A DNA stretch of 20,094 nt, from positions 271,724-291,817 of the forward strand of contig MU646396.1 in the NCBI GenBank assembly GCA_026770585.1. Reading direction: 5' to 3'. The stretch comes from Baffinella frigidus. Its lineage: Eukaryota > Cryptophyceae > Cryptomonadales > Baffinellaceae. Shown here piece after piece: positions 3,236 to 20,094 of the stretch. The stretch's first letter is position 1, and each line of letters begins with the position of its first letter. The notes beneath the pieces were generated by a model that saw only the letters and a program-made list of their open reading frames with translations, was not told the DNA's origin and did no database searches. The position numbers were made by a program, and so were the translations under genes.

Positions 3236-5130
3236 CAAAACCTGAACCCCAAACCCAAACCCTAAATCCCAAACTATTTAACCTAAACCTTAAACCCCAA
3301 ACACGAAACACGAAACACGAAACCGTGAACCGAAAATACAAAAAACAGGGAACCCTTAGCCTTAAACCTTAACCTTTACTCCCTGAACATTGAACTCTAA
3401 AATCTAAACCTAAACCCAAACCCTGAAATCTAAACCCTAAACCCTATACCCCTATACCTAAACCCCAAACCTTAACCTGCAAACCCAGAACCCTCGACCC
3501 GAAAACCCGGAACCCCAAACACTAAACCTTAAAGCCTAAACCCCCAACCCAAAACTGCATACCCCAAGTCTCACACAATAAATTCTGAACATGAAACACG
3601 AAATGCGAATACCTGAACCCTAATCCCAAAACCCTAAACCCTAAACCCTGAACACTAAACGCTGAACCCTAAAACTCATCCCTAAACCTCAAACCTCAAC
3701 CCTCAACCCTCAACCCTCCACCCGGAGCCCTTAACTCAAAAACTTAAACACTAAACACTGAACCCTGAACCCAAAACCCTAACCCCTGAACAACAAACCC
3801 CAAGCCTCACACAAACAATACTGCAATTGAAACTCAAAACACGAAACACGAAACACGAGCCCCAACCCCCAAACTTTAAACCCTAAACCCTGAACCCTGA
3901 ACCCTGAACCCTGAACCCCAAACCCTAAACCCAGAACCCTAAACCCAAAACCCTAAACCCAAAACCCTAAATCCTAAACCCTCTACCTTCAACCCTCAAC
4001 CCTCAGCCCCAAACCCTGAACCCTAAACCTTAACCCTGAACCCTAAAACCTAAACAATGAACAATAAACCCCAAACCCTCAACCCTGAACCCTAAACTTT
4101 AAACCCTAAACCCGAAACCGTGAACCCTGAACCATGAACCACAAAACCCAACCACAAACCCAAAATCCCAAACAGGAAAGACGAAACACGAACCCCTAAA
4201 CCTTCAACCCTAAACCCTGAACCCTAAACCCAAAACCATAAACCCCAAATCCTGAATCCTACAACCGCAACCCAAAGCCCTGAACCCTGAACCCTACACC
4301 CTAAACCTGAAACCCTAAAACACCTCAACCTCAACCCTAAACCCCAAACCCTAGACCCCAAACCCGATCCCCGAAGCATTAACCCTCAACCACCTACCCT
4401 CAACAAACAATAATCTGCCCTCAAACCTGAACCCTCAATCCGCATCCCGCAACCCGCAACCCTCAACCCGCAACCCTAAACCCTCAATTCAAAAACTCAA
4501 ACCCCAAACACTAAACCCGAAACCCGAAACCCCAAACCCCAAACCCGAAAACCCAAACCCCAAACCCTGAACACTGAACCATAAACCCTCGCCCCTAAAC
4601 CCTACACCTTAAACCCTAAACCCCACGTTTAAGGGTTTAGTGTTAAGAGTTTACAGTTTAGAGTTTAGACATCACATTCCAGGGGTTAGGGATTTAGGGT
4701 TGAGGGTTGAGGGTTCAGTTGTTATGGCTTGTGGTTTGTGTTTTAGGGTTCAGGGTTCAGGGTTTAGAGTGTTCAGGGTTGAGGGTTGATGGTTGAGGGT
4801 TTAGGGTTTGTGGTTTAGGGTTTGTGGTTTAGGGTTCAGGGTTTAGGGTTTCGGGTTTAGGGTTCAGGGTTCAGGGTTGAGGTTGGAGGTGTGTTGGTTG
4901 AAGGTTGATTGTGTAGAGTATCGGTGTTAGGTTTCAGGGTTTAGGGTTTAGGATTTGGGGTTTAGAGTTCATGGTTTATGGTTTAGGGTTTAGCGATCAG
5001 TGTTCAGAGTTTAGTGTGTAGGTTTTTTAGGTTTTAGGGTTGAGACTCAGGGTTTATGGTCTAGGGTTCATGATTTTGGGTCTAGGGATCAGGTTTCAGT
5101 GTTCAGGGTTTAGGGGTTAGGGTTTAGTTT
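3236..5130. repeat. Interstitial telomere-like repeat tract with orientation switch
   Basis: Nearly the whole stretch consists of degenerate 7-base units: CCCTAAA, CCCTGAA, CCCTCAA and CCCGAAA up to about 4624, then TTTAGGG, TTCAGGG and TTGAGGG to about 5130. The switch is abrupt, around CCCCACGTTTAAGGG at 4621-4635. CCCTAAA/TTTAGGG is the telomere repeat of land plants and several algal lineages. The order here (C strand then G strand) is opposite to a head-to-head telomere fusion, which reads G strand then C strand. Units are too mutated to be an active telomere. No gene is visible inside. Confidence 0.9.
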
Positions 5131-5430
5131 TCTGGTTTTGAAGTTTCCGCGAGCACCGCGTTGTTTCAGCATGTCTCTGTGCTCCGAATGGCTGATCTTG
5201 TGTCTCTCAGATTTCATGAGACACTCTTGTGGATTCCAGAACCGCCGAGAAACGTAAATTCGGCGTGGGGTTACATCTCACCATCCCCAACAAGAGGCCG
5301 AGAGGCAGCGCTACAAAGGATGTAAATGACCCACCCTCGGAGGACCCTGGCCCTGCCCAGACGGATGGCGTGCGTCTCGCTCGAAGGGGGCACGCCGCCG
5401 TAGTCCAGTGCCAGGAACGTCATGTCGGTT
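5131..5430. other. Unassigned region between telomere-like tract and hairpin cluster
   Basis: A plus-strand frame is open across this stretch and on to 5873 but has no ATG start. It contains a basic KRPR patch (about 5298-5309) and is otherwise unlike any family I know. It could be an exon of an unrecognised gene; I do not call it. Confidence 0.35.
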
Positions 5431-6243: not shown

Positions 6244-6473
6244 ATGAAGCCGCTCCGAGAGCTCTCCGCCGAGGAGTTTTGCGCGCTCCTGCACTCGCTG
6301 GGACTCGGCAAGTTCGCCGTAGGGTTCCTTGCGGCAAGGCTCGACGGCAGGCAGCTCTCCCTCGCGGGTGACGAGGATCTCGCAAAGGTGGGCATCCCCA
6401 CTTTGCGGACGCCCGACTGAACAACCTTGCCGACTTGGCGTGGTCGCTAAATGGCTCGCGCCCCAATCACCAG
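6244..6473 (+). CDS. SAM-domain exon, interrupted by a one-base frame break
   Basis: From ATG 6244, 58 codons run to TGA 6418-6420. Residues about 7-51 match a SAM domain: LSAEEFCALLHSLGLGKF (helices 1-2), GFLAARLDGRQLSLA (helix 3 with the idG--L pattern) and GDEDLAKVGI (helix 4 with the typical lGI ending). The expected last helix is present but in another frame: HFADARLNNLADLAWSLNG follows from 6399. One extra C in the CCCC run at 6396-6399 would join the frames. The restored frame reaches CACCAG|GTGGGC, a phase-0 donor at 6473/6474 that suits the phase-0 exons downstream. This is either a sequencing error in a homopolymer or a real disabling frameshift. A stop at 6217 bounds the frame upstream. 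Confidence 0.65.
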
Positions 6474-9400
6474 GTGGGCATCGACCTTCCCACGCCCCGC
6501 AGGTGCCCCCCTCCCTCCGACACGAAGCCGACAGGAAGCCCTCGTCCAACGTCTGCGGTTCAGTCACTTGACTGGTCCCCCAGCTGGCATTTTCTTGCTA
6601 TTACTCAGATTCAATCCACTCCACGCGCATGGGTCTGCCTAGCCTGCACAGTACTGCGAAATTACAGTACTGTGCTGCACTGCGCCTGCCGTACAGAGTA
6701 TGCCCCTCCTCGCACCTCTCCCGCACCTCTCGCTGCGCGCACCTCCCACACCTCCTCTCACACCTCCCCCGCACAGGGCGAACATTCCCGAGGAGGAGAC
6801 TGATGGATGACCGGCAGAGGGTTGTTAACGGAGGTCCCTCGATTTGCCAAACTCTTGAGTTCAACTGACGCATCCCGGGCTGGTCGCCCGTTGGTCAACG
6901 TCCATCACCTGAATCACCCGAAAACCCAAACCCCAAACACTCAACCCTACACCCCAAACCCTACGCCCCGACCCCTGCACCCCTGCACCCCACACCCCTC
7001 AACCCTGGACCCTACACCCTAGACCCCAAACCCTACACCCTACACCCGAAACCCGAAACCCGAAACCCGAAACCCAAAACCCGAAACCTGAAACCATTCG
7101 AAAACCGCAGGTCGCTGCTCGAGGCCATCGAGGCTTTCAAGGCTGGAGGGTTGCCGCTGGCTAAGCTTTCGAGCCATGTATCCCCTCCCCCCAACCCCCG
7201 ACCCGCTGGCTAAGCTTTCGAGCCATGTAGCCCACCCACCCCAACCCCAACCCTACACCGCAGACCCCTCCCAAAATTCCACAGCCCCCCCCCCCCAAAC
7301 CCCAACCCTACACCTTGCTCGAAAGCACGGTGAGAAAGTGGTGGAGAACGGTTGCCTTGAGATCGAAATCGTTGTGTTTAGGGTTTAGGGTGGATAGGGT
7401 CTAGGCCCAGAGTCGTTTCGGGGGCGTTTCTCGGCGCGGAGGTGACGCCGAACAGTTTTCTCGGGTGGAGCTTGGGGTTAAGGGTTCTGGTGTGCGTGTC
7501 TGCGAATGCGACAGAGCACCCAGCTCAGGCCGCGGGTTGGGTCAGCCAGAACAGCAACTCCTGAACGTGTGTGGACAGGAGGAGGAGGGGGGGGAGGACG
7601 AGGAGAAGGAGGAGGAGGGGGCGGAGACGTCTCCGGAGGAGGAGAAGCAGGACAAGGAGGAGCAGGAGGATGACGATTACACCAAGGACGGGGTAAGCCC
7701 CCAGCCACCCGAAGTTAACCACATCGCGATATGTCACCTGTATTAGATTTCACCGAGACTAAACCCTGAGGGTTTAGTCTTGGGGGGCTCTGTGTTTCTT
7801 TTTATGTGATTAATATTCGGATCCCATTGTCTGGGAGCGTTGCATGAATAAGTCGAGTGTTTGAGAATGGGGGGGGGGTCGGAGGGAACTGAGGGGAGGG
7901 GGACCGATTGGGATTGGCTGACGGGGAGCCGCGCGCCGCAGAATGGAGAAACACCGCTGCACATCTCTGCTGCTCAGGGTGAGGAGGCCTCGATCAAGGA
8001 GCTTCTGGCGGCGAACGCGGACGTTCACGCCAAGAACGAGGTACGCGCGGGAAGGGGGTAGGGTGCTGGCAGAGCGAGAAGGGGCGAGGGGGGGACGAAG
8101 GGAGGGGGTTGGCCTGGGGACTGCATTCTACTTGAGTGGGGTGGAGGTGTGGACCTGTGGTTGTTAAATGACCCAATCTGTGAACCATAGACCCTACTCT
8201 AACCCTTGACCTGCCGCCCTGAGCGTAAACCCCGAATGCCAACCCCTCAACACGTAAACCCAGAATTCCCGATCCTTGTTGACCAACCTCAAATCCTAAC
8301 CATCAACCGTAGAGATCTCAGCCTCGATCCTCAACCCTGGGCCTTCAAGTCCGAAACCTTGAACCACGCACGACTAAACCCCAACCCCTAATGTCCAAAC
8401 TATGACCTCAGCAACTTAGCTGTAAACAACCCTCAATCCCAAACCCTCAGCCTAAGCCCTACATCCTCAATCACAATCCCTCAAACTACGCCCTCAACCC
8501 CAATATCGCAGACTTATATCCTCGATCTTTATGATCTCAACCAGGGTTTGTGATTAGGAATGTCGTTTGTGAGACGTAGACTCAACGTTCACATACACCC
8601 TGGTCAACCCCGAACGCTGAACCGAACAACATTGATCGCTGGATTCCTAGGCGAACACATAATGATTCAGGGTCGTGGTGGTGACCACACAGTGGTTTTT
8701 CGTGTTGTGGAAGGATTCCGCACCCTTTATTTTTACCAGAAAAGTGCGATGTTCAATTGTCGGAGCGTTGGCATCGGTTGTAGGCGGCGCTAGAAACAAC
8801 GCGCAGTGGACTTGGCTGACTTTCACCACTCCTTTCCCCACAGGATGGCAGCACGCCGCTTCATGCCGCAGCTTTTCAGGGTCAGGAGGGGGCGATCCAT
8901 CTTCTTCTCGCGGCTGAGGCGGATGTTCACGCCACGGACGAGGTAAGCTTGGGGGAGGGGCGTAGGCTGCTGGGAGGGCGAGGGGGAATGGCCTGGGGAC
9001 TGAATGTTACGTTTGTGTTTTGGATGTTGTTGAAAGACCAAATCCGGGAGCCTCAGACCCAACCGTTTACCGTAAACCATAAACTCTCAGCGTAAACCCC
9101 GAACCTCAAATCCCCAAGTGGGCTTGGCTGACGGGGAGGTTTTTTGCGTAGGGTGGAAGGACGCCGCTGCATTATGGTGTGTTGCATGAATGAGTCGAGT
9201 GTTTGCGAATGGTGGGTGTTTCAGAGGGATCCGAGGGGAGTTGGGGCGATTGGTCTGGGCTGACTGGGAACCGCGCGGCGCAGGAAGGATGCACGCCGCT
9301 GCATTCGGCTGCTTCTCAGGGTCAGGAGGCGGCGATCAAGGCGCTTCTGGCGGCCAACGCGGACGTTCACCCAAAGGACGAGGTAAGGGGGGACAGGGGG

Positions 9401-12400
9401 ATTGGTGAAGGCGGTGTTGTCTATTTCTGAAATTATTGTTCGGATGCCTTTGTCTGGGCGCGTTGTATGAATGAGTGGAGGGCTTGCGAATGGCGGGGGG
9501 CTTCGGAGGGACTTGAGGGGCGGGCAACGGCTTGGGCTTGGCTGACTCGCAGCCCCTCTTTTCTCAGGACGGATGCACGCCGCTTCATTGGGCTGCTTCT
9601 AAGGGCCAGGAGGCTGCGATCAAGGCGCTTCTCGCGGCGAACGCGAACGTTCACACACAGGACGAGGTAAGGGGGGCAGAGGTGATTGGTCAGGGCGGTG
9701 GATTTTTATATGTAATTATTGTTCGGATGCCATTGTCTGGGCGCTTTGCATGAATCAGTCGAGTATTTGAGAATGTTAGGGGCTTCGGAGGGACCTGAGA
9801 GGAGGGGGGCGGCGTGGGCTTGGCTGACTCGCAGCCCCTCTTTCCGCAGGAAGGATGCACACCGCTTCATTGGGCTGCTTCCAAGGGTCACGAGGCGGCG
9901 ATCAAGGCGCTTCTCGCGGCCAACGCGGACGTTCACGCCAAGCACGAGGTAAGTGGGGCAGGGGGCAAGGGTGCTGGGAGGGCACGGAAGGGGGATAGCG
10001 GCCTGGGGACTGCATGTTAGTTTATCGGTGTTGCCCTGATCTTGTTGCATGACCCAATCCGTCCACTACAGACCCAACTCGAAGCCCTTGACCCTAAGCC
10101 CTGAGCGTAAACCGCGAATGCTGAACCCACGCCACGTAAATCTGGAATTCCCGACCCTTGTTGATGAACCTCAAACCGTAACCGGAAACCGTAGAGACCT
10201 CAGCCTCGATCCTCAACCCTGAGCCCTTTAGTCCGAAACCGTGAACACGCACGAATGACCCCTAACCCCATAATGTTTAAACCATGGCCTCTGCAGCTAA
10301 CTGTAAACAACCCTAAATCCCAAACCCTCAACCTAAGCCCTAAATCCTAAATCCCAATCCCCCAACCTAAGCCCTCAACCCCAATACTTCAGACTTTTAT
10401 CCTCAACCCAGATGATCTAAACCAGGGTTTGCGATTAGGGATGTCGTTTGTGAGACATCAACTCTACGCTCAGATACACCCTGGACGTCCAACCCGAACG
10501 CTGCATCGAACGCCATTGATCGCAGGCATCCTAGGCGATCACATTTTGATTCAGGGTCGTGGAGGTGACCTCACCTTGGGGTTGTCGTGGTGTCGAAGTA
10601 TTCCGCACCCATTATTTTCACCACACATGTGCGATGTTCAATGGTCGGAGCGGTGGCATCGGTTGTAGGCGGCGCTAGCAACAACGCGGAGTGGACTTGG
10701 CTGACTTTGACTTCCCTGTTCCTGCAGGATGGAAAGACGCCGCTGCATTCGGCTGCCTTTCGGGGGCAGGAGGGGGCGATCAAGCTGCTTCTGGCGGCGA
10801 ACGCGGACGTTCACGCCAAGGACAAGGTACGCGTTGGGAAGGGGAGTAGATTGCTGGGAGGGCCAGGGGGGAATTGCCTGGGGACGATATGTTATGTATT
10901 TGTTTTGTATGTTGGTGAAAGACCCCATCCGTGAACCTCAGACCCAACCGTTAACCGCGAACCGTAAACTCTGAGCGCAAACCCCGAACCTCAAATCCCC
11001 AATGGTTGCCTCGGTGGCATGGGTTGCAGTCGGTGCTAGCAACAATGTCAAGTGGGCTTGGCTGACGTGGATGTGCCTGGCGAAGGGTGGAAGGACGCCG
11101 CTGCGTTGTGGCGCGTTGCATGAAAGAGTCGAGTGTTTGAGAATGGTGGGGGTTTCGGAGGGATCTGAGGGGAGCGGAACGGCTTGGGTCTGGGTGATGT
11201 GGAGCCGCATGCCGCAGACTGGAGAAACGCCTCTGCATTTCGTGGCAAAACTGGGGCATGATGCGGCGATCAAGGCGCTTCTGGCGGCGAACGCGGACGT
11301 TCACGCCAAGCACGAGGTAAGTGTGCAAGTGGAGTAGGATGCTGGGAGGGTTAGGGGGTGGCGGCCTTGGGACCGCAGTTTTCTTCAGTGGTGTGGAAGT
11401 GTGGACCTGAGGTTGTTGGATGACCCAATGCGTGAACCATAGACCCTACTCTGAACCCTTGACCCCAAGCCCTGAGCGTAAATCCCGAATGCTGATCCCT
11501 CTACAAGTTTACCCGGAATTCCCGACTCTGTTGATGAACCTCAAACAATAACCGTAAACCGTAGAGACCTCAGCCTCGATCCTCAACCCTGGGCCTCAAG
11601 TCCGAAACCGTGAACACCGCACTAAACCCTAACCACTAATGTCTCAACCATGACTTCTGCACCTAACTGTAAACAACCCTAAAATCCAAACCCTCAACCT
11701 AAGCCCCAAGTTATTCCAATCCCTCAACCTAAGCTCTCAACCCCAATACCTCAGACTCATCTCCTCGACTCTGATGATCTCAACCAGGGTTTGCGATTAG
11801 CGATGTCGTCTTGTGAGATATATCCTCTACGCTCAGATACACCCTGAACGTCCACCCCGAACGCTGAATCGAACACCGTTGATCGCTGGAATCCTAGGCG
11901 ATCACATACTGATTCAGGGTCTTTGTGGTGACCACACCGTGGTTTGTCGTTGTTTCGAAGGATTGCGCACTCATTATTTTTACCACACAAGTGCGACGTT
12001 CAATGGTCGGAGCGTTGGCATCGGTCGTAGGCGGCGCTAGAAACAATGCGGAGTGGACAAGGCTGACCTGCCCCCATTTTCCCCGCAGGATGGAAGGACG
12101 CCGCTGCATTACGCTGCTTCTGATGGCCAGGAGGCGGCGATCAAGCTGCTTGTTGCAGCCAACGCGGACGTTCACGCCACGGACGAGGTCATCCTGGGGC
12201 AGCGAAGTAGAGTGCTTGGAGGACGAGGGGGAGGGGGCGGCCTTGGAACTCTCTATCTTACGCGTGCGGTTTAGATGTGGTTGAAAGACTCACTCCGTGA
12301 ACCTAAAACCCAACTGTACACCGTAAACCATGAACTCTGAGCGTCAACCCTGAACCTCAAATCCCCAATAGTTGCAGCGGTGGCATGGTTTCCAGGCGGC

Positions 12401-15400
12401 TCTTGAAACAATGCCAAGTGGGCTTGGCTGACGGGGATGTCTGGCGCAGGGTGGAAGGACGCCGCTGCATCATGGTGCGTTGCATGAATTAGTTGAATGT
12501 TTGCAAATGGTGGGGGTCTCGGAGGGATCATAGGGGAGTGGGACGGTTTGGGCTTGGCTGATGTCAAGTTGCGCGCCGCAGAATGGAGAGACGCCTCTGC
12601 ATTTCGTTGCGAAAGTTGGGCATGATGCGGCGATCAAGGCGCTTCTGGCGGCGAACGCGGACGTTCACGCCAAGCACAAGGTAAGGGGAGGGGAGGGGAG
12701 CAGGGTGCTGGGAGGTCGAGGGGGGAGGCGCTCACATACACCCTGGACTTCCACCCCGAACGCTGAATCGAACGCCATTGTTCGCTGGAATCTTAGGCAA
12801 GCTGACACTGATGTAGGGCCTTTGTGGTGACCACACCGCGGTTTGTTGTGATGTCGAAGGATCCCGCACCCATTGTTTGTACCACACAAGTGTGTTGAAT
12901 GGTCGGAGCGTTGGCAATGCGGAGTTGTCTTGGCGAACTCTTACCCCTTTTTTCCACAGGGTGGCAGGACGCCGCTGCATGTGGCTGCAGTGAAGGGTCA
13001 CGAGGCGGCGATCAAGGCGCTGCTGGGTGCCACGGCGGACGTTCACGCCAAGGACGAGGTAAGCGCGGGGGAGGGGGGGAGGGTGCCGGGAGGGCGAGGG
13101 TGGGTGGTCTGGGGAATGTTCCTCGGAGGGATCTGAGGGGAGGGGGGTGCCTTGGGCTTGGCTGACGGGGAGCCGCATGCCGCAGAATGGAGATACACCG
13201 CTGCACATCTCTGCTGCTCAGGGTGAGGAGGCCTCGATCAAGCTGCTCCTGACGGCCAACGCGGACGTTCACGCCAAGAACGAGGTAAGCGCGGGAAGGG
13301 GGTAGGGTGCTGGGAGGGCGAGGGAGCGGCGGCTTGGGTACTTTATTTTGCCTTAATGGTGTGGTGGTGTGGACCTGAGGTTGTTGAATGACCCAATCTG
13401 TGAACCATAGACACAACTCTAAACACGTAAACCCGGAATCCCCGACACTTGTTGATGAACCTCAAACCGTAACCGTGATCCGTAGACACCTCAGCCTTGA
13501 TCGTCGACCCTGGGCCGTTAAGTCCGAAACCTTGAACCACGCACCACTAAACCCCATCCCTTAAAGTCTAAACCATGACCTCTGCACCTAACTGTAAACA
13601 ACCCTGAATCCCAAACCCTAAACCTAAGCCCCAAATCCCAATCCCCAAACCTAAACCCTAAACCCCAATACCTTGGACTTATTTTCTCGACCCTGATGAT
13701 CAAGACCAGGGTTTGCGATTAGGGATGTCGTCTGTGAGACATATCCTCTACGCTCAGATACACCCCGAACGTCCACTCCGAACGCTGAATCAAACACCGT
13801 TGATCGCTGGAATCCTAGGCGATCACATACTGATTCAGGGTCTTTGTGGTGACCACACCGTGGTTTGTCGTTGTGTGGAAGGATTCCGCACACCGATTGT
13901 TTGTACCACACAAGTGCGATGTTCAATGGTCGGAGCGTTGGCGTCGGTCGTAGGCGACGCTAGAAACAATGCGGTGTGGGCTTGGCTGACTTTTACCCCG
14001 TTTCCCGTAGGATGGAAGGACGCCGCTGCATTATGCAGCTATTCATGCTTCAAAGGGGGAGAACGCAACGATCAAGGCGCTTCTGGCGGCGAACGCGGAC
14101 GTTCACGCCAAGGACGAGGTACCAGTGGAAGTGGGGTAGAGTGCTGGGAGGGTGAGGGGGCGGGGGCGGCCTGGGGCCTGCATTCTACTTTGGTGGTGTG
14201 GAGGTGTGGACCGGATGTTGTTGGATGACCCAATGTGTGAACCATAGACCCAACTCCAAATTCTTGACCCTAAGCCCTGTGCGTAAACCCCGAATGCCGA
14301 ATCCTCAACACGTAAACCCGGAATTCCCGACCCTTGTTGATGAACCTCAAACAATAACCGTAAACCGTAGAGACCTCAGCCTCGACCCTCGAACCTGGAC
14401 CTTGAAACCGTGAACCACGCACGACTAATCCCTAACCACTAATGTCTCAACCATGACCTCTGCACCTCACTGTAAACAACCCTCAATTCCAAACCCTAAA
14501 CCGAAGCCCTAAACCCTAAATCCCAATCCTTCAAACCAAGCCCTCAGCCCCAACAGAGCGTTTGCGATAATTGTTGTCCATTTCAGACGTGCGGTTTACC
14601 GGTCTTCCGGTTTTCAAAAATGTTGTTAAGGTCGTAAAACATTTTACGGTACAAATAAAAACCGGAAAACCGGAAAACCGCACGCCCAAAATGGACAACA
14701 ATTACCGCAAACGCTCTACCTCAAACATGCATTCTCGACTCTGATGATCTACACCATGGTTTGCGATTACGAATGTCGTTTGTGAGACATAGACTTTACG
14801 CTCAGATAGACCCTGCACGTCCACCCCGAACGCTGAAGCGTTGGCATCGGTTGTAGGCGACGCATAGAAACAATGTGGAGTGGTCTTGGCTGACGTTTAC
14901 CCCCCTTTCCCCGTAGGATGGAAGTACGCCGCTGCATGCGGCAGCGTCTCAGGGCGAGGAGGCACCCATCAATGCTCTTCTCGCGGCGAAGGCAGACGTT
15001 CACGCCAAGGACAAGGTCAGCTTGGAACCAGGTCAGCGTGGAAAGGGGATAGTTTGCTGGGAGGGAGAGGGGCTTGGGGCGCGGCCGGGGGACTCCATGT
15101 GAAGTTTATTATTATCATAATTATTATTTTCTTGATTTGTACCACACACGTGCGAGGTTCAATGGAGCGTTGGCATCGGTTGCAGGCGGCGCCACAACAA
15201 TGCGGAGTGATCTTGGCTGACGTGTACCCTCCCCCGTTCCGCAGGATGGAAGCACACCGCTGCATTCGGCTGCTTTTCAGGGTCAGGAGGGGGCGATCAA
15301 GCTGCTTCTGGCGGCGAACGCGGACGTTCACGCCAAGGACGAGGTACGTGTGGGGATGGGGAGTAAGGTGCTGCAAGAGCAAGGGGGATGTGGCCTTGGA

Positions 15401-18400
15401 ACTCCTTCTCACGTGTTTGTTTTGGATGTTATTGAAAGACCCAATCCGTGAACCTCAAGACCCAACTATACGCCGCTGCATTATGGTGCATTGCATGAAA
15501 GAGTGTTTGAGAATGTCGGGGGCTTCGGAGGGATCCGAGGGGAGGGGGGGCGATTTGTCTTGGCTGATGGGGAGCCGCGTGCGGCGCAGGAAGGATGCAC
15601 GCCGCTTCATTCGGCTGCTGCTCAGGGTCAGGAGGCCGTGGAGGCGGCGATCAAGGCGCTTCTCGCGGCCAACGCGGACGTTCACGCCAAGCACGAGGTA
15701 AGTGGGGACGGGGGTTGGGGTGATGGGAGGGCACGAAAGGGGGACAGCGGCCTGGGGACCGCATGTTACTTTAGTGGTGTGCAGGTGTGGCCCTGATGTT
15801 GTTGCATCACCCAATTCGTGAACCATAGACCGAACTCTCAACCCTTGACCATAGGCCCTGTGCGTAAACCTGAAATGCCAAAACCTCAACACGTCAACCC
15901 GGAATTCCTGACACATTTCACCCAACTCTAAAGATGTAAACCCGGAATTCCCGACTCGGTTGATGAACCTCAAACCCTAACCGTAAACCATAGAGACCTC
16001 AGCCTCGATCCTCAACCCTGGGCCTCAAGTCCGAAACCGTGAACCACGCACCACTAAAACCTAACCACTTATGTTTCAAGACAGGACCTCTGCACCTAAC
16101 TGTAAACAACCCTAAATCACAAACCCTTAATCTAAGCCTCAAATTCTCAAACCCAATCCCTCAACCCAAGCCCTAAATCCCAATACCTCAGACTTATCTC
16201 CTCGACTCTGATGATCTCAAACAGGGTTTGCGATTAGGGATGTCGTGTGTGAGACATATCCTCTACGTTCAGATACACCCCGAACGTCCACCCCGAACGC
16301 TGAATCGAAAGTCATTGATCTCTGGAATCTCAGGTAGAAAAGCACTCGTATTCAAGACCTTGTTGGTGACCACACCGTGGTTTGTCGTGGTGACCAAAGA
16401 TTCCGCACTCATTTTTTTTACCACGCAAGTGCGATGTTCAATGGTCGGAGCGTTGGCATCGGTTGTAGGCGGCGCTAGAAACAATGCGGGTTGGTCTTGG
16501 CTGACTCCCCCCCACCTTTCCCCGCAGGATGGAAGGACGCCGCTGCATTACGCTGCTTCCGATGGCCAGGAGGGGGCGATCAAGCTGCTTCTGGCGGCGA
16601 AGGCGGACGTTCAAGCCAAGGCTGAGGTTAGAGTTGGGCAGGGGAGTAGGGTGTTTGGAGGGCGAGGGGGGCGGGGTCTTGGAACTCAATGTTTCGTGTG
16701 TGGTTTGGATGTTTTTGACAGACCCAATCCGTTTACTTCAGACCCAACCGCAAACCATAAACTCTGAGCGTAAACCCCGAACTTTTGACCCTTCCTGAAC
16801 AACCTCAACCCCTATCCTTAAAGCGTGACCGTGAGATCTAAGCTTCGATCCTCACCCCTGGTCCTTGACGTCCTGAAACGTGAACCACGCACGACTAAAC
16901 CCTGAACTCCTACTGTCTAAACCCTACACTCTTTACCGAAACCAGAAACAACCTGTGTCTTCCAAACTCTGAACCTAAGCCCCCTGGACCTTCAACTCCA
17001 TTACCGCAGAAGTTCTTCCTCGACCCTGATCATCTTCTAAACCAGAGTTTGCGAAGAGGGATGACGTGTGTGAGACTAAGACCCTTTCAACGTTAGGCTA
17101 CGTGTCAACTCAGACCCTACGCACACGTACGCACATACAGACCCACAACGCTCAAAGGAAAGTCCTTGCACTCTGAACTTTCAGGCCAGCACGGACTGAC
17201 GCAGGGTCTTTGTGGTGATCATGATCACAGCGTTTTCTGGCGCCCCCTGCAACCAATGTTTTCACTTGTAGACGGATTTGTCACAGTTTATTTGTACCAC
17301 AGAAGTAGAATGCTGGACGGTTGGCATCGGGCGCAGACGGCGCTAGAAACGTCGCGGAGTGGGCTCGACTGACGGGGAGGCGCGCTCTCTCTCTCTCTCT
17401 TTCGCTCTCTCTTCCGCGTGGCGCAGGGGGGGTCTACGGCGCTGCACGCGGCGGCGAAGGAGGGTCAGGAGGCGGTGATCAAGGCGCTTCTGGCGGGGAA
17501 CGCCGACGTTCACGCCCAGGACGAGGTTAGGGGGAAGGAGAGCGAGAGAGAGAGAGTGAGAGAGAGAGTGAGAGAGAGAGACAGAGAGATTGGCCAGAAG
17601 GGGGGTCGTACGGTCAGACGGGTGGTCATAAGGCTAGGACGAGATCACCCTGTGGGGAGGGGGGTGCTGGGAGGGCCAAGGGGGTGGGGGGGGGGCGAGA
17701 GTTTGTGTTTTGGACGTTTTGGGAATTTTCCAATCTGACTGTTTCTACAGACGCCTCAACTCTAAACCAAATATTGACCCCCCCCCCCCGTGTTTTTGGA
17801 CGGTACCCACACAGCGGGCTACGAAGGAGAAACATCGTCAAAATCAACCCAATACCGGTCACCTTATCCGTAGGAACCTCCCCTATGTTCCTACGGATTG
17901 CCTACCGCAAGGTCGTAGGTCGTGTCGCTTGAGGGTTATTCGAAATCTCTTCGAAGTCTGCTGCGTGGAATGACATGCTTTTCTGCCGCGTAACTTCCCG
18001 ATATCTTCGATGATGGAGCGAAAATCGGCTAAGCGCGTTGCGAGAATGCGTCGAGGGTTTGAGCAGGGTGGTGGCGTGGAGGAATCTTAGGGGAGGGGGA
18101 CGGCTTGGGCTTGGCAGACTGTGAGGACTACGGGCTTAGTATGGCGGGTAGTGACGGTGACTGATGTGGTGGGGCAAATGGTGGGGTGATGCAGGAAGTG
18201 ACGGTGACTAATGTGGTGTGGCGAACGGTGGGGTGGGCAGGATGGAGATACGGCGCTGCACCATGCTGCGAAGCTGGGACTAGATGCGGCGATCAACGCC
18301 CTTCTCCTCCAACGCCCAGAACACGTCAACGCCAAGAACAAGGCAACCACACAGAGGGCTACCAAGGGATTGTCGGGCAATCAGTGCCCGAGTTTCCGTT

Positions 18401-19194
18401 ACCTTATCCGTAGGAACCCACCTATATTCCTGGGGGTTGCCTACCGTAGGGTCCTAGGTCTTACCGTTTAGGGGTTATTAAAAATTCCTTCAAAGTCCGC
18501 TGTGTGGGTGGGGGAGACGGGGGTGGCGCTGGAAGGGCGAGTGCAGGGGCTGAGTTTTCTATCTATGGATTTTGCTGGGACATTCTACCCTGACGATTTC
18601 GACAGACACGCCCCGTAAACCCCAACCTGGACCTACCTCCTAACCCGGAATGGGCTGGCCGTGTTGCGAGAATGCGTCGAGGGTTTGAGAAGGGTGCCGC
18701 CGTGGAAGCATCTCAGGGGAGGGGGGCGCCTTCTAGCTCTGCCTGGGTTTTATTCTGGCTCGTCCTCAAGGCTTTATGTACGCCCTTTGGTACTGGATTT
18801 CTGCTCTTAAATACTGTGAAGGACGAGCCAGAATCAAACTGAGGTAGAGCTAAGACTTGGGCTTGGCTGATGGGGAGGCGCTTGGCGCAGGATGGGTCGA
18901 CGCCGCTGCATGCGGCAGTTGGCATGAACCCCATGCACTTCAGGGCGCGCGGCGAGGTCTTCCAACAGAAGGTCTTCCAGAAGATTCAGGTCGCCCTTTC
19001 CGCACAATTTCATTCCTTCAACATTTGATTTGATTAGGATTCATAAGTAAAGTTAACTATGCCATAGTAATTTCTCCTATGATATTTTGAGATTTTTCGG
19101 CCTGAGGTGTTGACAGAGCCCTTGTGATAATGGCCAGGAGGCGGCGATCCGAGAGCTTCTGGCGGGCAAGGCCGACGTGCACGCCCAGGACAAG
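6244..19194 (+). CDS. Multi-exon SAM + acidic linker + ankyrin-array gene (overall span, inferred)
   Basis: I infer one plus-strand gene from consistent strand, phase and domain order: SAM domain at 6244-6473, possible WH2-like exon at 7111-7177, E/D-rich exon ending at 7692, then 18 full ankyrin exons from 7942 to 18342, a divergent exon at 18891-18989 and a truncated one at 19117-19194. All ankyrin exons begin after an AG and end before GT (one GC), and all enter and leave in phase 0. Joined, the 18 full repeats give about 600 residues of solenoid. Ankyrin repeats bind proteins and SAM domains often oligomerise, so a cytoplasmic scaffold or regulator is likely; ligand unknown. The link between the SAM part and the array is inference, because exons between 6474 and 7578 are unclear and the SAM frame is broken. 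The true 3' end may lie outside the window. Confidence 0.55.
6474..7110 (+). other. Putative intron DNA: hairpin, pyrimidine tracts, telomere-like repeats
   Basis: Good acceptor-like sites occur at TTTTCTTGCTATTACTCAG (ending 6608) and after the pyrimidine-rich stretch ending CCGCACAG (6776), so small exons may exist here. I could not settle any. A perfect hairpin lies at 6646-6675. CCCTAAA/CCCGAAA-type repeats occupy about 6915-7095, including consecutive CCCGAAA units near 7046-7075. Confidence 0.45.
6646..6675. repeat. Perfect 11-bp hairpin
   Basis: GCACAGTACTG (6646-6656) is followed after 8 bases by CAGTACTGTGC (6665-6675), its exact reverse complement. Each arm contains the palindrome CAGTACTG. 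It lies in probable intron DNA; function unknown. Confidence 0.8.
7111..7177 (+). CDS. Possible small exon with WH2-like motif
   Basis: After the acceptor AAAACCGCAG there is a 67-base stretch ending before CAT|GTATCC. In its best frame it reads SLLEAIEAFKAGGLPLAKLS, an amphipathic helix followed by an L-x-K-L element. This recalls WH2 actin-binding motifs (LL--I then LKKV) but is not diagnostic. The preceding codons (NRR) stay open in frame, so the exon could start further upstream. Entry phase does not match the donor at 6474, so another exon would be needed between them. Confidence 0.3.
7154..7229. repeat. 27-bp exact direct repeat including a donor-like site
   Basis: The sequence beginning CCGCTGGCTAAGCTTTCGAG and ending CATGTA occurs at 7154-7180 and again at 7203-7229, a period of 49. 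The duplication copies the end of the possible WH2-like exon together with its CAT|GTA donor-like site, giving two candidate 5' splice sites. Confidence 0.8.
7579..7692 (+). CDS. Acidic (Glu/Asp-rich) linker exon upstream of the ankyrin array
   Basis: A purine-rich stretch encodes 38 residues that are mostly E and D with some K, G and Q (EEEGGEDEEKEEEG at its start, EDDDYTKDG at its end). The 3' end is a good donor, GACGGG|GTAAGC, in phase 0, matching the phase-0 entry of the first ankyrin exon. The start is my choice: GTGGACAG at 7571-7578 is an in-phase acceptor, but the frame is open further upstream to 7465. It is probably a flexible, highly charged linker between SAM and ankyrin parts. 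Confidence 0.5.
7693..7941 (+). other. Intron before ankyrin exon 1
   Basis: It starts GTAAGC and ends GGCTGACGGGGAG...GCCGCAG. It carries a perfect telomere-unit hairpin (7756-7780), a decayed relic of the 60-nt half exon (GCGTTGCATGAATAAGTCGA near 7838-7857) and a G-rich run at 7868-7903. Confidence 0.6.
7756..7780. repeat. Telomere-unit hairpin
   Basis: AGACTAAACCC (7756-7766), loop TGA, then GGGTTTAGTCT (7770-7780): a perfect 11-bp stem whose core is one C-strand and one G-strand telomere-like unit. It repeats in miniature the orientation switch of the 3236-5130 tract. Confidence 0.8.
7942..8040 (+). CDS. Ankyrin exon 1 (33 codons)
   Basis: Opens NGETPLHISAAQGEEA and ends ADVHAKNE before GTACGC. 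The acceptor GCCGCAG is GC-rich with no pyrimidine tract. The canonical TPLH, AA, G and LL positions are present; S9 replaces the usual Ala. Closest sibling is exon 11, which shares HISAAQGEEASIK. Confidence 0.8.
8041..8843 (+). repeat. Long intron family, copy L1
   Basis: 803 bp between exons 1 and 2. Order of blocks shared with the other long introns: G-rich start; ACCCAATCTGTGAACCATAG; degenerate CCCTAAA-like DNA (about 8180-8540); GTTTGTGATTAGGAATGTCG; GGTGACCACACAGTGG; GGCATCGGTTGTAGGCGGCG; branch box TTGGCTGAC; pyrimidine tract; CACAG. No ORF of note. Confidence 0.8.
8844..8942 (+). CDS. Ankyrin exon 2 (33 codons)
   Basis: Opens DGSTPLHAAAFQGQEG and ends ADVHATDE before GTAAGC. Acceptor CTTTCCCCACAG is pyrimidine-rich. 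It differs from most cassettes by H rather than K at position 19 and AEAD rather than ANAD in the second half. Confidence 0.8.
8943..9283 (+). other. Intron between ankyrin exons 2 and 3
   Basis: It starts GTAAGC with a G-rich run, contains the half-exon relic R1 and ends with GGCTGACTGGGAACCGCGCGGCGCAG. Its middle includes short telomere-like pieces (about 9055-9110). Confidence 0.65.
9152..9211 (+). pseudogene. Half-exon relic R1
   Basis: After an intact branch box (GGCTGACGGGG) and acceptor (TTTTTTGCGTAG), 60 bases read GGRTPLHYGVLHE and then hit a stop (TGA 9191-9193). The homologous end ATG|GTGGGT could act as a donor. It resembles an ankyrin exon that has lost its second half and is now disabled. 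Confidence 0.55.
9284..9382 (+). CDS. Ankyrin exon 3 (33 codons)
   Basis: Opens EGCTPLHSAASQGQEA and ends ADVHPKDE before GTAAGG. The acceptor (GCGGCGCAG) is of the GC-rich class. P replaces the usual A in the HAK triplet. Together with exons 5 and 15 it forms the EGC subclass. Confidence 0.8.
9568..9666 (+). CDS. Ankyrin exon 4 (33 codons)
   Basis: Opens DGCTPLHWAASKGQEA and ends ANVHTQDE before GTAAGG. The acceptor CCCCTCTTTTCTCAG is pyrimidine-rich. N replaces D in the ADVH motif and TQ replaces AK. W at position 8 is shared only with exon 5. The preceding intron (9383-9567) is one of the shortest and carries a decayed half-exon relic. Confidence 0.8.
9850..9948 (+). CDS. Ankyrin exon 5 (33 codons)
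   Basis: Opens EGCTPLHWAASKGHEA and ends ADVHAKHE before GTAAGT. Preceded by GCTGACTCGCAGCCCCTCTT and TCCGCAG. Exons 4 and 5 with their introns (9383-9567 and 9667-9849, 185 and 183 bp) are a recent-looking tandem duplication. Confidence 0.8.
9949..10727 (+). repeat. Long intron family, copy L2
   Basis: 779 bp with the same block order as L1: G-rich start, GACCCAATCCGTCCACTACA, telomere-like DNA (about 10075-10420), GTTTGCGATTAGGGATGTCG, GGTGACCTCACC, GGCATCGGTTGTAGGCGGCG, TTGGCTGACTTTGACTTCCC and CTGCAG. Confidence 0.8.
10728..10826 (+). CDS. Ankyrin exon 6 (33 codons)
   Basis: Opens DGKTPLHSAAFRGQEG and ends ADVHAKDK before GTACGC. The acceptor CCCTGTTCCTGCAG is of the pyrimidine-rich class. 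The last residue is K instead of E, as in exons 9 and 13. Confidence 0.8.
10827..11217 (+). other. Intron between ankyrin exons 6 and 7
   Basis: 391 bp. It contains a shortened piece of the long-intron 3' region (GGTGCTAGCAACAATG...TTGGCTGACG), the half-exon relic R2, and a G-rich spacer before GGTGATGTGGAGCCGCATGC and CGCAG. Confidence 0.65.
11086..11145 (+). pseudogene. Half-exon relic R2
   Basis: 60 bases read GGRTPLRCGALHERVECLRM and end ATG|GTGGGG in phase 0 without a stop. The upstream acceptor is mutated (GCGAAG where R3 has GCGCAG) and the core H is R, so it is probably not used. Confidence 0.5.
11218..11316 (+). CDS. Ankyrin exon 7 (33 codons)
   Basis: Opens TGETPLHFVAKLGHDA and ends ADVHAKHE before GTAAGT. 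The acceptor is GCATGCCGCAG (GC-rich class). FVAK replaces xAAx, shared only with exon 9; T at position 1 is unique in the array. Confidence 0.8.
11317..12088 (+). repeat. Long intron family, copy L3
   Basis: 772 bp, a full-length family member with all shared blocks. It holds one of the clean empty sites (CCCCAATACCTCA near 11739-11751) equivalent to the element insertion point in L6. The branch box is a variant, AGGCTGACC. Confidence 0.8.
12089..12187 (+). CDS. Ankyrin exon 8 (33 codons)
   Basis: Opens DGRTPLHYAASDGQEA and ends ADVHATDE. Acceptor TTTTCCCCGCAG is pyrimidine-rich. The donor is GTCATC, a weaker match than the GTAAG/GTACG of most cassettes. Nearest sibling is exon 16 (DGRTPLHYAASDGQEG). 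Confidence 0.8.
12188..12581 (+). other. Intron between ankyrin exons 8 and 9
   Basis: 394 bp, organised like the intron at 10827-11217: shortened long-intron 3' piece, half-exon relic R3, G-rich spacer, branch box TTGGCTGATG and acceptor GCGCGCCGCAG. Confidence 0.65.
12450..12509 (+). pseudogene. Half-exon relic R3, best preserved
   Basis: Branch box GGCTGACGGGG and acceptor CTGGCGCAG are intact. The 20 codons read GGRTPLHHGALHELVECLQM with no stop and end ATG|GTGGGG in phase 0, so it could still act as a mini-exon. It has ankyrin-like TPLH and a second-helix-like VECLQM but lacks the ANADVHAK half. Confidence 0.5.
12582..12680 (+). CDS. Ankyrin exon 9 (33 codons)
   Basis: Opens NGETPLHFVAKVGHDA and ends ADVHAKHK before GTAAGG. 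The acceptor GCGCGCCGCAG is of the GC-rich class. Near-twin of exon 7, supporting duplication of the exon 6-7 block to give exons 8-9. Confidence 0.8.
12681..12959 (+). repeat. Long intron family, deleted copy L4
   Basis: 279 bp. The G-rich start is joined near 12730 directly to GCTCACATACACCCTGGAC, which in full copies lies about 460 bp further in. The deletion removes the telomere-like part. A GGTGACCACACCGCGG block remains. The branch box is degenerate (TTGGCGAAC) and the acceptor is TTTTTTCCACAG. Confidence 0.75.
12960..13058 (+). CDS. Ankyrin exon 10 (33 codons)
   Basis: Opens GGRTPLHVAAVKGHEA and ends ADVHAKDE before GTAAGC. The second half has LLGATAD where others have LLAANAD, the most divergent inner helix among the first 16 cassettes. 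The first codons GGR match the half-exon relics. Confidence 0.8.
13059..13185 (+). other. Short intron between exons 10 and 11, G-quadruplex-prone
   Basis: 127 bp. It begins GTAAGC and runs into GGGGGAGGGGGGAGGG, GGGAGGG, GAGGG and GGGTGG, a dense series of G runs. It ends GGCTGACGGGGAGCCGCATG and CCGCAG. Confidence 0.7.
13186..13284 (+). CDS. Ankyrin exon 11 (33 codons)
   Basis: Opens NGDTPLHISAAQGEEA and ends ADVHAKNE before GTAAGC. Nearly the same as exon 1, with T instead of A in the LLTAN segment. It indicates that the exon 1 type was copied about 5 kb downstream. Confidence 0.8.
13285..14010 (+). repeat. Long intron family, copy L5
   Basis: 726 bp, full block order. Telomere-like DNA about 13415-13690, then GTTTGCGATTAGGGATGTCG, GGTGACCACACCGTGG and branch box TTGGCTGAC. 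It ends in TAG instead of CAG. Confidence 0.8.
14011..14118 (+). CDS. Ankyrin exon 12 (36 codons)
   Basis: Opens DGRTPLHYAAIHASKGEN and ends ADVHAKDE before GTACCA. It is three codons longer than the norm, with the extra residues in the turn after the first helix (IHASKGENATIK). The acceptor is CCCGTAG. Length stays a multiple of three and both ends stay phase 0. Confidence 0.8.
14119..14916 (+). repeat. Long intron family, copy L6, carrying an inserted TIR element
   Basis: 798 bp, of which 161 plus a 2-bp duplication are the element at 14556-14716. Without it the copy is shorter than average: the GGTGACCACACCGTGG block is missing and CCGAACGCTGAAGC joins directly to GTTGGCATCGGTTG near 14838. 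It ends TTGGCTGACG...CCGTAG. Confidence 0.8.
14556..14716. mobile_element. 161-bp MITE-like element with TA target site
   Basis: The ends are inverted repeats: GAGCGTTTGCGATAATTGTT on the left pairs with the right end, with one mismatch in the outer 28 bp, and pairing continues with some mismatches for about 59 bp. The interior is AT-richer and non-coding. Sibling introns L3 and L8 read CCCAATACCTCA at the same place. Here CCCCAACA precedes the element and TACCTCA follows, which fits duplication of TA with one T-to-C change. TA duplication suggests a Tc1/mariner-type parent, but no transposase is visible. Confidence 0.8.
14917..15015 (+). CDS. Ankyrin exon 13 (33 codons)
   Basis: Opens DGSTPLHAAASQGEEA and ends ADVHAKDK before GTCAGC. 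The second half reads APINALLAAKAD, with K for N. The acceptor is CCCCGTAG. Confidence 0.8.
15016..15244 (+). repeat. Long intron family, deleted copy L7
   Basis: 229 bp. The G-rich start is followed by an AT-rich simple stretch (ATTATTATCATAATTATTAT, 15109-15128) and then the family 3' end from GTACCACACACGTGCGAGG onward, with the branch box TTGGCTGACG and CCGTTCCGCAG. The telomere-like middle is missing. Confidence 0.75.
15245..15343 (+). CDS. Ankyrin exon 14 (33 codons)
   Basis: Opens DGSTPLHSAAFQGQEG and ends ADVHAKDE before GTACGT. Acceptor CCCGTTCCGCAG. Close to exons 2 and 6 in the FQG/FRG first-helix segment and GAIKLLL. Confidence 0.8.
15344..15589 (+). other. Intron between exons 14 and 15 with 5'-truncated relic R4
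   Basis: 246 bp. At 15470-15515 a piece reads ACGCCGCTGCATTATGGTGC and continues like the half-exon relics, but its acceptor and first codons are missing and GTCGA is deleted. A G-rich spacer and GGCTGATGGGGAGCCGCGTG precede GCGGCGCAG. Confidence 0.6.
15590..15697 (+). CDS. Ankyrin exon 15 (36 codons)
   Basis: Opens EGCTPLHSAAAQGQEAVEAA and ends ADVHAKHE before GTAAGT. Three extra codons (a repeat of the GAGGC(C/G)G(T/C)G-type bases, giving EAVEAA) lie between the helices. Otherwise of the EGC subclass with GC-rich acceptor. Confidence 0.8.
15698..16527 (+). repeat. Long intron family, copy L8
   Basis: 830 bp, the longest copy. It includes a local duplication: AACCCGGAATTCC occurs at about 15896 and again near 15939, each followed by GAC. 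It contains an empty element site (TCCCAATACCTCA near 16168-16180), GTTTGCGATTAGGGATGTCG, GGTGACCACACCGTGG, TTGGCTGACTCC and CCCCGCAG. Confidence 0.8.
16528..16626 (+). CDS. Ankyrin exon 16 (33 codons)
   Basis: Opens DGRTPLHYAASDGQEG and ends ADVQAKAE before GTTAGA. Q replaces the otherwise conserved H in the DVH motif. Near-twin of exon 8 in its first half. Confidence 0.8.
16627..17426 (+). repeat. Long intron family, diverged copy L9
   Basis: 800 bp, clearly related but the most diverged: GACCCAATCCGTTTAC, CTGATCATCTTCTAAACCAG, GTTTGCGAAGAGGGATGACG, GGTGATCATGATCACAGCG and GGCATCGGGCGCAGACGGCG replace the usual blocks. It ends CGACTGACGGGGAG followed by a CT microsatellite and GCGCAG. Confidence 0.75.
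17385..17413. repeat. CT-rich arm of an inverted repeat around exon 17
   Basis: (CT)n followed by TTCGCTCTCTCTTCC. Its reverse complement shares not only GA repeats but also the GGAAG and GAGAGCGA interruptions with 17533-17560 on the other side of exon 17. Confidence 0.75.
17427..17525 (+). CDS. Ankyrin exon 17 (33 codons)
   Basis: Opens GGSTALHAAAKEGQEA and ends ADVHAQDE before GTTAGG. TALH replaces TPLH, as in exon 18. The second half has LLAGNAD. It begins with six G residues after GCGCAG, leaving the exact AG clear. Flanked by CT and GA tracts that could pair in the transcript. Confidence 0.8.
17533..17589. repeat. GA-rich arm of the inverted repeat around exon 17
   Basis: GGAAGGAGAGCGAGAGAGAG and further GA/GTGA units. 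It is complementary to 17385-17413 across the 99-bp exon. Confidence 0.75.
17806..17969. mobile_element. 164-bp TIR element, copy C1
   Basis: Left end CCCACACAGCGGGCTACGAA pairs imperfectly with the right end TTCGAAGTCTGCTGCGTGGA. The middle has a perfect 11-bp hairpin ATCCGTAGGAA/TTCCTACGGAT (17866-17876 with 17888-17898), then TTGCCTACCGCAAGGTC. No ORF. No clear target-site duplication. Confidence 0.75.
18148..18240 (+). repeat. 46-47 bp tandem duplication with two candidate acceptors
   Basis: The unit beginning GTGACGGTGACT(G/A)ATGTGG occurs twice (18148-18194 and 18195-18240). Each copy carries a branch-point-like CTGAT/CTAAT and ends in an AG acceptor (ATGCAG at 18194, GGGCAG at 18240). 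Use of the first would add 46 bases and shift the frame; the second gives a normal ankyrin exon. Confidence 0.7.
18241..18342 (+). CDS. Ankyrin exon 18 (34 codons), GC at the donor position
   Basis: Opens DGDTALHHAAKLGLDA. The second half departs from all others (LLLQRPEHVNAKNK), with one extra codon and VNAK as in many ankyrins elsewhere instead of VHAK. The expected donor is AAG|GCAACC: GC instead of GT. This could be a GC-AG intron or a lost splice site. A TIR element copy starts 4 bases later. Confidence 0.7.
18347..18508. mobile_element. TIR element, copy C2, abutting exon 18
   Basis: Left end CCACACAGAGGGCTACCAAG pairs with the right end CTTCAAAGTCCGCTGTGTGG. It shares TTATCCGTAGGAAC, TTGCCTACCG and GGGGTTATT with the other copies; the right arm of the internal hairpin is mutated (TTCCTGGGGGT). 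It starts 4 bases after the exon 18 boundary. Confidence 0.75.
18509..18890 (+). other. Remainder of the intron between exons 18 and 19
   Basis: It has a G-rich stretch, telomere-like fragments (about 18610-18645), a spacer GTTGCGAGAATGCGTCGAGG, the 123-bp inverted-repeat element, and finally TTGGCTGATGGGGAGGCGCT with acceptor TGGCGCAG. Confidence 0.6.
18733..18855. mobile_element. 123-bp inverted-repeat element in a short-intron spacer
   Basis: TAGCTCTGCCTGGGTTTTAT plus TCTGGCTCGTCCT on the left pairs with the right end (18820-18852), 4 mismatches in 33. The spacer in other introns reads GCCTTGGGCTTGGCTGAC (13148-13165). Here GCCTT is followed by the element and then CTTGGGCTTGGCTGA, fitting insertion with a CTT duplication (18730-18732 and 18856-18858). 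No ORF. Superfamily not assigned. Confidence 0.65.
18891..18989 (+). CDS. Divergent exon 19: ankyrin-like first half only
   Basis: After GGCGCAG it reads DGSTPLHAAVGMN, a normal ankyrin start, then continues PMHFRARGEVFQQKVFQKIQ, which does not fit the second helix. A phase-0 donor-like CAG|GTCGCC closes it at exactly 99 bases, the cassette length. Earlier GAG|GTCTTC is an alternative donor (18956/18957). It may be a diverged or rearranged cassette, or a decaying end of the array. Confidence 0.4.
19117..19194 (+). CDS. Truncated ankyrin exon 20 (26 codons)
   Basis: After the acceptor-like TGTTGACAG, 78 bases read SPCDNGQEAAIRELLAGKAD and end VHAQDK before GTCAGT, in phase 0 at both ends. The TPLHxAA half is absent. 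It could be the missing second half of exon 19 separated by about 130 bp, or an independent truncated cassette. Confidence 0.45.
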
Positions 19195-19715: not shown

Positions 19716-19880
19716 CCCACACAGCTGGCAACGAAGGGAATCTTGTTGGCTAAGCCATCGAGAATCGGTTAGGACATCCGTAGGAACAATCCTATCTTCC
19801 TACGGATTGCCTACCGTAAGGTCCTTTATATTGTTGATTGTGGGTTATTCTCGAAATCCCTTTGTAGTCCGCTGTGTGGG
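19716..19880. mobile_element. 165-bp TIR element, copy C3
   Basis: Left end CCCACACAGCTGGCAACGAA pairs with the right end CTTTGTAGTCCGCTGTGTGG. The internal hairpin ATCCGTAGGAA/TTCCTACGGAT (19776-19786 with 19797-19807) is perfect. TTGCCTACCGTAAGGTCCT and GGGTTATTC match C1 and C2. Confidence 0.75.
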
Positions 19881-20070
19881 AGAAGAGCTCTGCAGTGTTT
19901 TTTCTGTGCAGCATCTTGGCTCGACCGCATACACCCGGACCAAATGCACCAAAATGCTAAGCTTAGACCATGCGTCAAAATGCTCGGCAATATTTCCCCT
20001 TGCTTAGACCCTAACCCTGAGCTTTGACCCCAATCCCCAATCCCTGATTTACATGCCCTAAACCACGACC
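19881..20070. other. Right flank, no gene seen
   Basis: No ankyrin exon or other domain is visible. Telomere-like fragments (CCCTAACCCTGA about 20008-20019) occur. Confidence 0.5.
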
Positions 20071-20094
20071 CCCCCCCCCCCCCCCCCCCCCCCC
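20071..20094. repeat. Poly-C run at the right edge
   Basis: 24 C residues close the window. As with the G run at the start, this is most simply an assembly or sequencing limit at a homopolymer. Confidence 0.9.

Follow-up and report, generated by a model that had tools for sequence, protein, structure and literature searches.

Arrays of exons that each encode one unit of a repeat protein, all in the same intron phase, have already been published for leucine-rich repeats (LRR; PMC11378527, PMC6564038). In the ROCO genes of brown algae, one LRR is encoded by each 72-bp phase-2 exon, and shuffling, splice variants and positively selected sites on the concave face have been described (Teng 2024, PMC11378527). 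The same source cites Zambounis 2012 and Teng 2023 on these genes, and gives somatic recombination of these loci as unreported. In Tetrahymena, LRR exons of exactly 90 bp, separated by phase-2 introns, form arrays that have been ascribed to ectopic recombination, possibly involving a retrotransposon (PMC6564038). Here, an array of one-repeat ankyrin exons is described from the single-celled cryptophyte alga Baffinella frigidus, in a window of 20,094 bp (G+C 54.8%; the whole stretch of DNA analysed) on contig MU646396.1; all positions below are those of the window. The array resembles the brown-algal ROCO (LRR) and NB-ARC-TPR genes in having one repeat per exon, a single phase, a tandem arrangement, shuffling and variation on the binding face. 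It differs from the 72-bp, phase-2 LRR exons and from the TPR exons of those genes in that its repeats are ankyrin, its exons 99 bp long and in phase 0, its host a cryptophyte and its gene probably equipped with a SAM domain. The exactly sized exons and the single intron phase are shared with the LRR arrays of Tetrahymena, where, by contrast, more than 70,000 LRR exons occur in phase 2 and the repeat straddles exons; in Baffinella, one array and one related protein were seen. The one-repeat-per-exon architecture thus belongs to a known kind, that of the LRR and TPR arrays of brown algae and the LRR arrays of ciliates, and what is new is its occurrence with ankyrin repeats and in a cryptophyte. 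We consider it probable that the locus is a gene for a SAM-plus-ankyrin scaffold or adaptor protein, the array of which grew by tandem copying of exons together with their introns and was altered by unequal recombination.

The array lies on the plus strand between positions 7942 and 18342 and comprises 18 exons, E1 to E18, each of which encodes one ankyrin repeat of 33–36 residues. Fifteen of these cassettes are 99 bp long, two are 108 bp and one is 102 bp; all 18 start and end on a codon boundary, and none contains an in-frame stop. The acceptor is AG in every case, and the donor is GT in 17 cassettes and GC in E18. The first-pass annotation of this DNA had described the cassettes in these terms, and its lengths, splice boundaries and phases were recovered for 18 of 18, as was its view that the cassettes, being symmetrical phase-0 exons, are frame-neutral. 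Since the boundaries of these exons lie between repeats, the gain, loss or swap of a cassette leaves the reading frame intact. When the array was translated as one joined sequence, the Pfam model PF00023 recognized 18 stretches of it as ankyrin (404.5 bits, cutoff 21.1). At the DNA level, a 121-nt repeat family spans all but two of the 18 cassettes (17 rows, E15 being counted twice), and a 93-nt family spans 17 cassettes and a damaged exon farther downstream, E20. When exons were allowed to drift neutrally from their consensus in a simulation of 4000 runs, a mean of 5.55 of the 18 acquired a stop, and all 18 stayed open in 0.0005 of the runs. Because the repeat families span nearly all cassettes and the neutral simulation rarely left every one of them open, the series does not stem from chance. 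It is a real, frame-neutral exon-shuffling array.

The flanks of the cassettes fall into two classes. Trees were built from the 110 bp upstream of E1–E17, with E18 omitted as too diverged, and resolved two clades, A and B, with support of 100/100; along the array, the classes follow one another in the order BABBBABABABAAABAA. Class B comprises E1 (7942–8040), E3 (9284–9382), E4 (9568–9666), E5 (9850–9948), E7 (11218–11316), E9 (12582–12680), E11 (13186–13284) and E15 (15590–15697). Class A comprises E2 (8844–8942), E6 (10728–10826), E8 (12089–12187), E10 (12960–13058), E12 (14011–14118), E13 (14917–15015), E14 (15245–15343), E16 (16528–16626) and E17 (17427–17525). The two 108-bp cassettes, E12 and E15, each have an insertion of three codons, and E16, of 99 bp, ends in GAG with GTTAGA following the 3' boundary. 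E18 (18241–18342), the 102-bp cassette, is the most diverged. The classes of the exons track those of the flanks, with 2 changes compared with 5.9 in shuffled arrangements. Exon similarity correlates with that of the upstream flank (Mantel r 0.39, P = 0.0005) and of the downstream flank (r 0.37, P = 0.0145); between upstream and downstream flanks the correlation is weak (r 0.18, P = 0.0485).

Eight introns are longer than 600 bp, and five of them (introns 1, 5, 7, 11 and 15) are mutually 80–86% identical over 715–781 columns. Since the introns are paralogous as well, the array grew by the copying of exon-plus-intron units. Introns that enter A exons exceed 700 bp in seven of nine cases, those leading from A to B measure 127–394 bp, and the two B-to-B introns have 183 and 185 bp. 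The seven steps from one B exon to the next are 1342, 284, 282, 1368, 1364, 604 and 2404 bp long. Three of them (1342, 1368 and 1364 bp) give a two-cassette unit, two reflect local copying of single cassettes, and the remainder have been rearranged. The unit, of about 1.35 kb, is composed of a B exon, an intron of about 780 bp, an A exon and an intron of 340–390 bp that contains a truncated third cassette. Such truncated (psi) cassettes were found on the plus strand in introns 2 (9152–9178), 6 (11086–11112) and 8 (12450–12476), and a remnant in intron 14 (15470–15488) has lost its 5' part, the branch box and the AG; the other three of the four retain the 5' end with the branch box and AG before it. 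In all four of these A-to-B introns the 3' part of the cassette is replaced by intron sequence at an identical junction, so that a single deletion was copied together with the unit. The psi-cassettes were also considered as true short exons and rejected as such, because the distance from the AG to the next GT or GC is 25 nt in all three cases, which is not a multiple of three.

This mode of growth changes the meaning of the uniform phase, which had been taken as a sign of a gene built for the swapping of cassettes. That argument is weakened, since copying a symmetrical exon together with its intron yields a uniform phase automatically. For the same reason the 17 junctions amount to about one independent event, and treating them as 17 independent observations was rejected in view of the intron paralogy. 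In animal ankyrin genes such as ANK1, many ankyrin repeats stand in series and many exons measure 99 or 198 bp; we know of no report that genes of this type contain a two-exon unit or introns that were copied and share 80% identity.

Recombination between the units was examined with the pairwise homoplasy index (PHI). For five exon-intron-exon units (U1, U5, U7, U11 and U15) with 71 informative sites, the test returned the minimum attainable with 1000 shuffles, P = 0.001, at each of three window widths. In the upstream exon of the units, seven sites support the grouping of U5 with U15 and six that of U1 with U11. In the last third of the unit intron, four sites support U7 with U11, and seven further splits have one or two sites each. 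The units have therefore recombined, with supporting splits that shift along the unit. A single case is E15, a chimera that resembles E3 in its 5' part and E5 in its 3' part. Over the region from −60 to +180 bp, it agrees with E3 at 20 of the 25 sites 5' of the break and with E5 at 57 of the 63 that lie 3' of it. The breakpoint falls between exon bases 51 and 75 (maximum chi-square P = 0.0005, the minimum for 2000 shuffles, with adjacent sites that are not all independent). Farther upstream, from about −183 to −120, E5 is again matched more often, which points either to a mosaic that switches more than once or to an alignment of lower quality in that region. The paralogous introns, the psi-cassettes, the PHI result and the E15 chimera together bear out the first-pass proposal in so far as cassettes have undergone copying, truncation and recombination.

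A structural ankyrin domain of fixed repeat number, in which the one-repeat exons are a relic of its origin and no present source of variation, is a possible though doubtful alternative. Divergence among the five best-matching long introns is 14–20%, and the copies are therefore not very recent. Ankyrin domains in general expand mostly several repeats at a time (Björklund 2006, PMC1553488), a tendency in keeping with this alternative and one that the two-cassette unit fits. Repeated rearrangement is nevertheless recorded in the E15 chimera and in the splits that shift along the units, and the synonymous difference (pS) of the pairs E1–E11 and E5–E15 is 0.08–0.09, as against 0.17–0.19 in the adjacent introns. 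Under the copying-and-recombination reading that we prefer, the binding domain would have grown by tandem duplication of exon-plus-intron units, mainly the two-cassette unit of about 1.35 kb. The number and order of the cassettes would then have changed as homologous introns recombined unequally, with occasional exchanges inside exons, and each gain, loss or swap would amount to exactly one repeat more or less, with frame and fold kept. The array protein is presumably made and would bind its partners through the variable first half of the repeats, so that changes in the array would alter binding.

Selection has acted on the encoded repeats. Ten of the 33 residues are invariant in E1–E17, and the ratio of replacement to synonymous change (omega) for the framework of the first half of the repeat is 0.05, which implies that constraint operated during much of the divergence. 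The cassette frames are under selection and the framework is under purifying selection. Variation is concentrated in the first half of each repeat, where positions 1, 3, 8, 11 and 12 hold much of the replacement change. At these five exposed positions omega is 1.47 (bootstrap 1.11–1.91) with the local pS and 2.43 (1.65–3.43) with the overall pS, both values being biased by the choice of the positions after the column variation had been viewed and by the omission of position 20 (replacement difference, pN, 0.54). Within class B the value is 1.59 and within class A 1.05. The figure of 2.43 was rejected as a sign of strong positive selection because it mixes the fast first half (pS 0.45) with the more uniform second half (pS 0.22), and 1.47 is the fairer estimate. 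Diversifying selection on the exposed positions is thus possible, on evidence that is modest and falls short of proof. At six positions known from designed ankyrin proteins, pN is 0.39, a value that random columns reach with P = 0.005; there is hardly any variation at two of the six (positions 24 and 33).

The second half of the repeat (codons 14–33) is more alike at synonymous sites, as the two pS values indicate. Over exon bases 40–99 of E1–E17, 262 of 1070 comparisons at four-fold degenerate third positions show a difference, compared with 398 of 914 in the first half. This uniformity is a sign of homogenisation at the DNA level or of a constraint such as that imposed by splicing signals. 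Many of the second-half positions that are uniform in the cassettes are variable in ankyrin repeats at large.

The splice signals bear on whether the cassettes might be skipped or chosen, so that one gene would yield many binding proteins, as has been proposed for the brown-algal LRR and TPR receptors. The motif TGGCTGA(C/T) precedes 12 of the 18 cassettes, with its A 20–24 nt 5' of the exon, and the TGGCTGAC box is most plausibly an extended branch site, in line with the branch-site consensus. Donor scores in E1–E17 range from 5.4 to 14.2, and this wide spread, from E12 (5.4) and E8 (6.3) to E2, E10 and E11 (14.2 each), could favour skipping. The symmetry of all 18 cassettes would permit it, and alternative splicing has been reported for the one-repeat LRR exons of brown algae (PMC11378527). 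We regard such a splicing repertoire as rather unlikely, because copying alone yields the symmetry, the branch box is retained in those 12 cassettes, and the donor score is above 9.5 in 12 of 17.

Outside the array, the gene appears to include further coding parts. A stretch upstream (6244–6399, plus strand) matches Pfam SAM_2 at 21.3 bits, just above the cutoff of 20.5, and SAM_1 below its own cutoff; this SAM stretch probably belongs to the same gene as the array. It is followed by an acidic low-complexity exon (7579–7692, plus strand) that is in phase 0 at both ends, with a donor GTAAGC of score 9.0 and a 5' limit inferred from an AG. Two damaged exons follow the array on the plus strand, both with inferred limits: E19 (18891–18989) has a 5' ankyrin half, then unrelated codons and a poor donor (score −1.5), and E20 (19117–19194) has a 3' ankyrin half and the donor GTCAGT. 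The GC donor of E18 is followed by an inverted-repeat element, which starts at the sixth base after the exon. Element ends matching CACACAGCNGNCNACNAAGG with at most two mismatches were found five times in the window, where 0.03 matches are expected, and delimit elements at 17808–17827, 18348–18506 and 19718–19878, with both ends present in two copies and the left end only in one; the copy at 18348–18506 is the one next to E18. Two further inverted-repeat elements resemble miniature inverted-repeat transposable elements; one (14555–14717, 60-nt arms, 90% complementary) sits in array intron 12 and the other (33-nt arms, 88%) at 18734–18852. Most of the long cassette introns are rich in degenerate telomere-like words.

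Several observations weigh against the proposed growth by unit copying in a functional SAM-ankyrin gene. Four of the seven B-to-B steps (284, 282, 604 and 2404 bp) deviate from the unit length. Introns 12 and 16 are just 57–70% identical to the other long introns, intron 17 excepted, and intron 17 is 42–47% identical to every other long intron; because of these three, not every part of the array fits the unit. In the exon tree, 10 of 14 inner branches are unsupported. Within 17 exons alone PHI is not significant (P = 0.77 and 0.84), so exons appear to move mostly as wholes, with breaks mainly in introns. Omega at the exposed positions is no higher than 1.47 with the local synonymous rate, and close to 1 in class A. 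The first-half positions that vary here are variable in ankyrin repeats generally (Spearman 0.54 over 473 repeats from the best 120 of 7852 proteins, a correlation inflated by the match pattern, which fixes several columns), and the idea that the variable positions are specific to this array was rejected on that ground. The frame of the SAM stretch runs into a TGA at 6418–6420 while another frame runs on (6244–6480), a break that may be a sequencing slip, an intron or a real lesion. E19 and E20 are damaged, and the GC donor of E18, with the element alongside, is weak (score 3.9). Given the broken SAM frame, this donor and the damaged exons, the locus may be partly decayed. Together with the truncated psi-cassettes, these defects would also suit a former SAM-ankyrin gene that is now a pseudogene, its cassettes open merely because they were copied recently. 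We consider this unlikely, since all 18 cassettes are open where neutral drift would leave a mean of 5.55 with a stop, and since omega in the first-half framework is 0.05.

A protein search with the joined array returned general ankyrin proteins only, at 41% identity or less, among the best 120 of 7852 matches. A 164-residue Baffinella protein (P0143), on another contig of 312,683 bp, has similar repeats (54% identity over 95%) and is the only Baffinella-named protein among the best 120 of 644 matches. The viral contigs searched gave a single match of 15 residues, 67% identical. The Pfam scan took in four translated pieces, and the gene may extend beyond the window; in these pieces only ankyrin, SAM and PDZ scored above cutoff, with no LRR or TPR combined with ROC-COR or NB-ARC. 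The locus thus shares with the brown-algal ROCO type one repeat per exon in one phase (18 of 18) and recombination between cassettes, and its ankyrin repeats place it outside the ROCO and NB-ARC-TPR families. A literature search on ankyrin one-repeat exons found no such array in titles and abstract openings, with subscription papers mostly outside its reach.

Misjoining of repeats in the assembly was also weighed. The published draft genome of strain CCMP2293, which is reported to be conspecific with B. frigidus, measures 534.5 Mb, with a G+C content of 53.9% and 41.1% repeats (PMC9756366, whose main text has no words starting with 'ankyrin' or 'intron'), and both ends of the window are homopolymer runs (15 G at 1–15 and 26 C at 20069–20094). 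An artefact is highly improbable, as the identity between cassettes nowhere exceeds 94% and the differences among the five similar long introns amount to 14–20%, far beyond ordinary sequencing error.

Elsewhere in the window, about 1.9 kb of degenerate telomere-like repeats (3230–5150) are of the CCCTAAA type on the plus strand until about 4625 and of the TTTAGGG type thereafter. A PDZ-domain protein with the N-terminus MGSGASQ is encoded on the minus strand (1340–1932); its relatives are T484DRAFT_1744337 of Baffinella frigidus, on the same contig (68% identity over 89%), and two JGI metagenome proteins (55% and 63%). Across the window, Rfam gave no matches and ARAGORN no genes.

In the broadest interpretation, a cryptophyte would have independently evolved a shuffling, frame-neutral ankyrin cassette system. 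Recombination, and possibly combinatorial splicing, would give it a wide range of binding specificities; the first half of each cassette would vary and the second would be homogenised at the DNA level, and the system would work like the immune-receptor repertoires proposed for brown-algal LRR and TPR genes. We hold this to be unlikely at present. The array adds ankyrin to the repeats, LRR and TPR, that take part in one-repeat-per-exon shuffling, and cryptophytes to the lineages, brown algae and ciliates, in which it is known, and the ankyrin case would make exon shuffling a convergent route to modular binding proteins. The traces kept at the locus, namely the higher-order unit, the truncated cassettes and the chimeric exon, make the multiplication of repeat exons directly readable. 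Engineered ankyrin binders vary at similar positions, and the array may be a natural library akin to them.

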